Assembly (NCBI GenBank): GCA_903900935.1
Contig: CAIUOX010000011.1
Span: 1-46,881 of the forward strand
Direction of reading: 5' to 3'
Length of the DNA stretch: 46,881 bases
Source of the DNA: an uncultured bacterium
Lineage (GTDB): Bacteria > Patescibacteriota > Minisyncoccia > Phycocordibacterales > PALSA-1337
The notes under the pieces are model-generated. The model did not search any database, was not told where the DNA came from, and saw only the letters and a list, made by a program, of their open reading frames with translations. The position numbers and the translations under genes are program-made. Shown piece by piece: positions 17,471-37,559 of this stretch. Each line of letters opens with the position of its first letter. Within the stretch, counting starts at the first letter, position 1.

Positions 17471-17524
17471 TTAGTTCAGAAGATGGAGGATGTGTACCCA
17501 TTTTCAAATATTCTCATCCTCAGT

Positions 17525-19224: not shown

Positions 19225-19249
19225 GCACAAATTATATCATAGACCAGAG

Positions 19250-19386
19250 AAGCGGGAGGATGTGTACTCATTTCATTCCATGAAGCTCGGTGACGATTTG
19301 ATATGTGTGCCTAAAGAATAATATAATGAGACGAAATCCCGCTGGGAATGCTTCATGGAATGAAATGAGTACACATACTCCCGCTT
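19250..19386. repeat. Long inverted repeat (37-bp arms, 63-nt loop)
   Basis: Arms 19250-19286 and 19350-19386 match at 36 of 37 positions when one is reversed (core GTGTACTCATTTCATTCC). The loop is 63 nt. The structure lies between the divergent PfkB and aldolase genes and ends 21 nt before the aldolase -10. As RNA it would be a very long hairpin. Confidence 0.9.
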
Positions 19387-19407
19387 CGCTAAACTCTTAT
19401 GAGGGGG

Positions 19408-23702: not shown

Positions 23703-23816
23703 GCAAGACACCGAACACTCAGAAAATAGACACGGATATTTTCTTGCTAGAAAATTCCTCGTGCTCGGACCAGTCGTCCTCGCAGGGTCTATTTTTCTGA
23801 GTGTTCGGTGTCTTGC
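23703..23816. repeat. Long inverted repeat (29/30-bp arms, 55-nt loop)
   Basis: GCAAGACACCGAACACTCAG begins the left arm (23703-23731). The right arm (23787-23816) is its reverse complement with a single extra A/T. The loop contains a small hairpin (ATTTTCT with AGAAAAT). It lies just after the transglycosylase stop and before the bidirectional terminator. Confidence 0.9.
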
Positions 23817-37373: not shown

Positions 37374-37408
37374 GCATATCCGAATGTATCATGAAGTTGA
37401 TGTAAAGT

Positions 37409-37533
37409 AAAAATATACACAACATATATAGTTGAAGCGACTTTCGGAAGGAGTGGAGACGACTGAGAATGAGTTGCTGGCCGAGCACGGCCAGACAGCG
37501 TTCGCTGAAACTATATATGTTGTGTATATTTTT
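37409..37533. repeat. Long inverted repeat (32/33-bp arms, 60-nt loop)
   Basis: Left arm 37409-37440 and right arm 37501-37533 match perfectly over 25 bp (ATATACACAACATATATAGT) and again in AGCGA. The arms are A+T-rich; the 60-nt loop is G+C-rich with a perfect sub-hairpin CTGGCC-GAGCAC-GGCCAG (37477-37494). It lies between Dus and the carboxypeptidase, upstream of Dus. Confidence 0.9.
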
Positions 37534-37559
37534 ATGATCAATCAATTCATGAGGAAATC

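Follow-up and report, generated by a model that had tools for sequence, protein, structure and literature searches.

The origin and upkeep of long, perfectly matched DNA stems is an old question, and it is raised here by a hairpin lying between two diverging sugar genes. The window, i.e. the whole stretch of 46,881 nucleotides that was analysed, is contig C11 of a Paceibacteria (Patescibacteria) genome of 643,875 bases in 42 contigs (G000); 757 kb of the nearest relative compared (G020) were also examined. A preliminary description had reported a near-perfect 37-bp inverted repeat with a 63-nt loop. This repeat is real and extends to arms of 41 nt: positions 19246-19286 pair with 19350-19390 at 39 of 41 positions around the 63-nt loop, with an ungapped core of 37 out of 38 (hereafter the 19249 hairpin). 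Folded as DNA, it reached a z-score of -12.2 on one strand and -11.4 on the other, and none of 200 shuffled sequences was equally stable. The placement between divergent sugar genes was also correct, the flanking genes coding for a pfkB-type kinase and a class II fructose-bisphosphate aldolase. Similar structures with different arms, announced at 23703 and 37409, are both genuine, with loops of 66 and 61 nt, respectively (Table 1). The first spans 23703-23816; the second (37397-37545) is 84% paired over 44 nt, with a core of 31 out of 33. The three hairpins of the window represent three apex families, C (19249), B (23703) and G (37408), and loops related to the family G apex were recognised by inspection in G020 at C3:12437, C1:266854 and C2:60384 (contig:position).

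Table 1. Hairpin features of the window, with positions counted from its first nucleotide
Feature	Positions	Strand	Evidence
Left stem arm, locus-specific	19246..19286	+	Complementarity; G020 orthologous site
Family C apex, 63 nt, dispersed conserved repeat	19287..19349	-	Recurrence in genomes
Mini-hairpin TCCC-GCT-GGGA within family C apex	19337..19347	.	4 pairs invariant in 16/16 aligned copies
Right stem arm	19350..19390	+	Complements left arm, 39/41
Left arm, second hairpin	23703..23726	+	24/24 paired
Family B apex, two mini-hairpins, core CACGGATATTTTCTTGCTAGAAAATTCCTCGTGCTCG	23727..23792	+	Common to 42/147 related genomes
Right arm, second hairpin	23793..23816	+	24/24 paired
Left arm, third hairpin	37397..37440	+	Inverted-repeat search
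Family G apex, CTTTCGGAAGGAGTGGAGACGACTGAGAATGAG...GCTGGCCGAGCACGGCCAG	37441..37501	+	Loops compared by inspection
Right arm, third hairpin	37502..37545	+	Inverted-repeat search

The window hairpin is neither a product of chance nor a single case. Scanning the whole of G000 for inverted repeats (arm length 18 bp or more, loop length 30-200 nt) returned 21 of them, hence not few or none, and about 55 were found in the 757 kb of G020. A stricter scan (minimum arm length 24 bp, minimum pairing 93%, loops of 30-100 nt) retained 18 in G000 and 47 in G020, and gave 0 in three order-2 Markov genomes. These data support the suggestion that the hairpins, which are spread over the genome, form a structural class sharing one mechanism. 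The recurrence of loops, sites and stems across independent assemblies led us to reject an assembly artefact, although a contig is broken within one copy (C24/C33). The family C apex occurs in G000 at four places besides the one in the window; the loop of the fifth copy is split by this contig break, between the end of C24 and the start of C33 (L008, L007). Such hairpins therefore probably fragment these assemblies and are undercounted.

The elements consist of two layers, a conserved apex of 38-66 nt, of which several families exist, and a stem of 20-46 bp. Loop families in G000 include A (38 nt), B (53 nt), C (63 nt) and G (37408), among others; each copy has its own stem, and sequence relatives within the genome were found for the loop, not for the arms. 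The near-identity of the arms, initially taken as the key feature, holds as far as pairing is concerned, but it is the loop and not the arms that makes up the repeat family. Copies of apex B showed a stem identity of 0.32 (positions 5-24) despite their common apex. In G020, between-copy stem identity had dropped to about 0.3 by position 13 in family C and by position 25 in family A, pairing remaining at 0.94-1.00 up to about positions 30 and 39, respectively. Within the apices, family C carries one invariant mini-hairpin (TCCC-AGC-GGGA) and family B two mini-hairpins whose sides co-vary. A hairpin family found at C2:66740, C2:886, C2:366425 and C1:340768 of G020 has conserved arms (GATGCAAATACGCAAATGCATGCGAAT) and variable loops; it reverses the apex and stem pattern and is closer to an ordinary MITE. 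Also in G020, a family A hairpin was nested in another 18-bp inverted repeat (C2:73633-73825), as if stems were layered.

Locus-specific stems were 98% paired: among 75 hairpins from G000 and G020, 47 were perfect, and 45 mismatches were counted over 2603 pairs (1.7%), including 9 G-T and 6 A-C, with no clear G-T excess. At 113 apex-B loci (L241-L353), unlike in G000 and G020, mismatches were skewed, with 74 A-C against 34 G-T read on the apex strand, a bias that could reflect selection on one strand. Total hairpin length was nearly constant (122 +/- 10 nt) irrespective of the apex, short loops being associated with long arms (r = -0.75). The standard deviation of this length was 10.4, versus 20.5 with arms permuted, and 0 of 10,000 permutations were as tight. 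Copying of arms from elsewhere in the genome was discarded as an explanation: a second match, in G000 or G020, was found for 13 of 73 outer arms, and among the matches listed these corresponded to conserved-arm families, to the orthologous site or to a common repeat. Stems seem to arise locally, at each site, and to have their pairing maintained there. The combination of an apex with a unique stem looks new. No earlier description in these bacteria was found in the open-access literature, to which the search was confined.

Strong stems located mostly between genes might be taken for bidirectional transcription terminators, a role that the preliminary description had already doubted. However, the 63 intergenic elements comprised 19 between divergent and 7 between convergent genes (background 166 and 159 of 866), T-runs were present at 16 of 75 hairpins, and the loops are long. 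With no convergent enrichment and scarce T-runs, this explanation is largely refuted and very improbable.

Among 147 relatives, loop C was detected in G000, G020 (about 12 copies) and G027 (6 copies) only, and loop B in 42 genomes, covering 25 of the 100 genera of the order. A search of the GTDB collection with a degenerate apex-B pattern gave at least 113 matching stretches; among the matches listed, all named ones were Patescibacteria (Nomura-, Taylor-, Yonath-, Zambryski-, Vogel-, Giovannoni-, Wildermuth- and Moranbacteria), the rest being unnamed bins. The elements either move or are common to different genera. Unique arms of 20-40 bp around a constant piece could also recall guides of CRISPR or TIGR type, in which arms would act as spacers and the apex as a handle. 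Such a design is extremely improbable here: the elements are single copies outside arrays, their arms are complementary to each other, and stems diverge vertically. Viral contigs, searched with apex B, apex C and one arm (that of the 19249 hairpin), gave no match, which also led us to reject a viral origin of the apices or of this arm.

Presence and absence were seen to vary between species. Many G020 elements are missing at orthologous G000 sites, and vice versa; at G020 C2:271189 (family A, a clean site), neither arm was present in G000. Some copies persist across species. The positions of elements in recG differ between the two genomes, and the prfB-ftsE site, followed across the genus, yielded little beyond G000 and G020. 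No target-site direct duplication was seen when filled and empty species-level pairs were compared by eye. Looking for one native arm at sites filled in G020 and empty in G000 gave mixed results, most being indistinguishable from random arms, and a G000 site on C16 bears a clear half-deleted element.

Insertions were not limited to intergenic DNA. In G000, mnmA, recG and dnaG carry in-frame elements, and 27 of 113 apex-B elements lie within open reading frames of at least 150 codons, including iscS, tsaD, mnmA, pheT-like and rsmE-like genes (host genes were named by inspection, and mnmA, iscS and rsmE also by PDB matches). The net length gain was about 63 nt for mnmA and, relative to the nearest uninserted homologue, 78 nt for iscS; although linker lengths vary and these estimates are rough, both are smaller than a whole hairpin with its two arms (105-116 nt), and would therefore fit one or both arms being old sequence. 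Other palindromes also concentrate in the linkers of mnmA, recG, tsaD and iscS, whose variable lengths therefore give no firm picture of the empty site. In tsaD, a universally conserved gene, the linker (L392-L421, between YPGGPE and LPRPM) is filled with differing palindromic sequences in many Paceibacteria, as if elements of several kinds preferentially inserted there.

The behavior of apex and stem could be followed separately in several cases. Genome G246 harbors four units of about 113 nt at four loci, 95-100% identical over 141-152 bases; three of them have distinct outer flanks which are again complementary (25/26, 27/28 and 17/17), and inspection of the outer arms of the fourth (L424) gave no clear pairing. 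Divergence of stems was compensated: orthologous apex-B sites displayed 82 doubly changed, still paired positions versus 42 other changes with a break, and in the pair L303/L325, 14 of 24 pairs were doubly changed and 0 broken. The apex was flipped between the orthologous sites C41:16021 of G000 and C2:254453 of G020, and had opposite orientations in iscS of L265 and L326.

At the site orthologous to the window hairpin (G020 C2:64861), a family A apex replaces family C. The outer 25 nt of the left arm match the G020 stem at 23 of 25 positions and, since this stem now bears another apex, the outer stem has outlived an apex change. In G024, the gap between the fructose-bisphosphate aldolase and pfkB genes is about 27 nt and has no hairpin. 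A regulatory role for the 19249 hairpin is unnecessary, yet an insertion between divergent promoters must alter their spacing. Elsewhere in the window, a solo stretch at 17478-17503 is 88% like the outer arm of this hairpin and corresponds to the G020 site occupied by an element of another family (C2:66740); it is possibly a decayed half element, or remnant of a hairpin of the 19249 type.

Stems shared under different apices would be expected if an apex inserted at the centre of already existing palindromes or hairpins. For C30:5768, the relative has a short hairpin only, with the same outer stem (GGAAGACCT...AGGTCTTCC), and the outer stem bases of C42:30789 and C38:22075 are common to G020 elements with other apices. 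However, apart from 19249, the shared-stem cases were weak when set against random arm pairs. Long stems devoid of an apex (arms of at least 24 bp, loops of at most 10 nt) numbered 1 in G000 and 3 in G020, against 18 and 47 with apices, and the rejoined G246 targets would be perfect palindromes without any loop. We therefore consider this route rather unlikely.

Another possible explanation, in our opinion unlikely, is of the MITE or REP kind, in which a transposase moves the whole hairpin and stems drift later, pairing being kept by selection or repair. The absence from G000 of both arms of G020 C2:271189 would agree with it, as would the approximately 22 semi-conserved inner stem positions of family A in G020 and the conserved arms of family E. 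It is difficult to reconcile with the identical 53-nt apex-B loops of C17:6471 and C42:30789, whose stems are unrelated except for the innermost GGACA, or with the near-identical G246 units flanked by differing outer arms. Y1 transposases are present in G000 and G020, and Y1/RAYT genes (PF01797) in 81 of 147 genomes, but they are missing from the apex-B carriers G041, G042, G021, G022 and G029; an obligate Y1/RAYT partner was thus discarded, keeping in mind that incomplete genomes may hide genes. A Y1/RAYT-type transposase gene of G000 (C42:24009-24860, minus strand; L060:4209-5060) has its own short flanking palindromes (GAGGTCTGACCTC), of a sequence unrelated to the hairpin apices.

Selection for pairing with free sequence would also be expected of a functional structured RNA or DNA site, such as a regulatory RNA, an mRNA processing signal or a protein binding site. 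The compensated stem changes, the co-varying mini-hairpins of apex B and the persistence of some copies across species are in line with such a role. On the other hand, the elements interrupt coding genes that are unrelated to one another and are found with every gene orientation, their presence varies between close relatives, and no clear G-U excess was seen in two genomes. Known RNA families were discarded as well, no Rfam family scoring above its gathering threshold and weak matches being mainly to long plant and animal microRNA precursors. We regard a functional site as improbable.

With somewhat better than even confidence, we interpret the hairpin as a small mobile palindromic element of Paceibacteria, in which the apex disperses, the target flank serves as template for the stem, and template switching keeps the arms matched. 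The apex unit would enter a new site, and one flank would then be copied as its reverse complement onto the opposite side, presumably by synthesis of the snap-back or template-switch kind, with the end of the hairpin as primer, and by an equally putative enzyme. Local DNA would thereby yield a new perfect stem. Later template switching between the arms would maintain their matching and occasionally flip the apex, nested stems would also result, and a limit on the copying tract could produce the length rule. Published work documents the generation and preservation of perfect hairpins by template switching (PMC8794818), as well as arm homogenisation and spacer inversion (PMC8604942). The inverted duplication proposed at the outset fits part of the data, one stem arm looking as if templated from the other. 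As for an invertible segment, the apex was indeed flipped in at least two orthologous cases, but nothing points to a programmed switch.

A further proposition, possible but doubtful, is that of a class of mobile elements that generate beside themselves, at every insertion, the flanking target sequence in inverted form, i.e. an inverted target-site duplication obeying a length rule of about 120 nt. If so, past insertions would be recorded in layers within the stem, and would have built many linkers of conserved Paceibacteria proteins. A stem written from the target at insertion would represent a novel mode of DNA joining by a mobile element, and would explain the abundance of palindromes in linkers of conserved proteins (tsaD, mnmA, recG, iscS) of these reduced genomes. 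With regard to how perfect stems arise and last, one bacterial group here provides many natural cases, with a built-in control in each hairpin, the apex being conserved and the stem free. Caution is also needed, as hairpins of this kind interrupt assemblies and resemble regulatory RNAs.

Several known systems share features with these hairpins. Rickettsia palindromic elements (RPEs) are palindromes of about 100-150 bp forming several families, either intergenic or in-frame in conserved genes, of a host-associated bacterium whose genome is small (PMC10969869). The Paceibacteria hairpins are likewise many-copy palindromes (21 and about 55 copies; 122 +/- 10 nt) found in-frame in unrelated genes of reduced genomes. 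Within an RPE family, shared sequence identifies the copies, whereas Paceibacteria copies share the apex only, and several apex families can occupy one site. As copies do not resemble each other over the whole element (stem identity 0.32), the hairpins were not filed as RPEs. With REP/RAYT systems and prokaryotic MITEs, they have in common that they are short, non-coding, dispersed palindromes, in some genomes accompanied by a Y1 transposase; they differ by stems unconserved between copies and by having no obligate Y1 partner, and no target-site direct repeat was seen by eye at the filled and empty pairs. In contrast to the terminal inverted repeats of MITEs, the outermost stem is the most variable part, family E excepted. 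TIGR arrays, known from parasitic bacteria, also alternate constant and variable pieces, but they are tandem units of edge repeat, spacer, loop repeat and spacer, have 9-nt spacers and adjoin a tas gene, whereas the hairpins are single, with complementary arms of 20-46 bp (PMC12045711). The coding palindromes of Nematomorpha mitochondria are similarly long, perfect inverted repeats inside protein-coding genes; their arms encode conserved residues, and the abstract describing them reports no conserved apex family (PMC6649704). Template-switch hairpins and quasipalindrome correction predict perfect reverse-complement arms made in one event, homogenisation of arms and inversion of spacers (PMC8794818, PMC8604942, PMC7202029), all of which recall the present elements. 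Those hairpins are sporadic mutations, however, whereas those of Paceibacteria go together with apices that are conserved and dispersed, and with a nearly constant total length.
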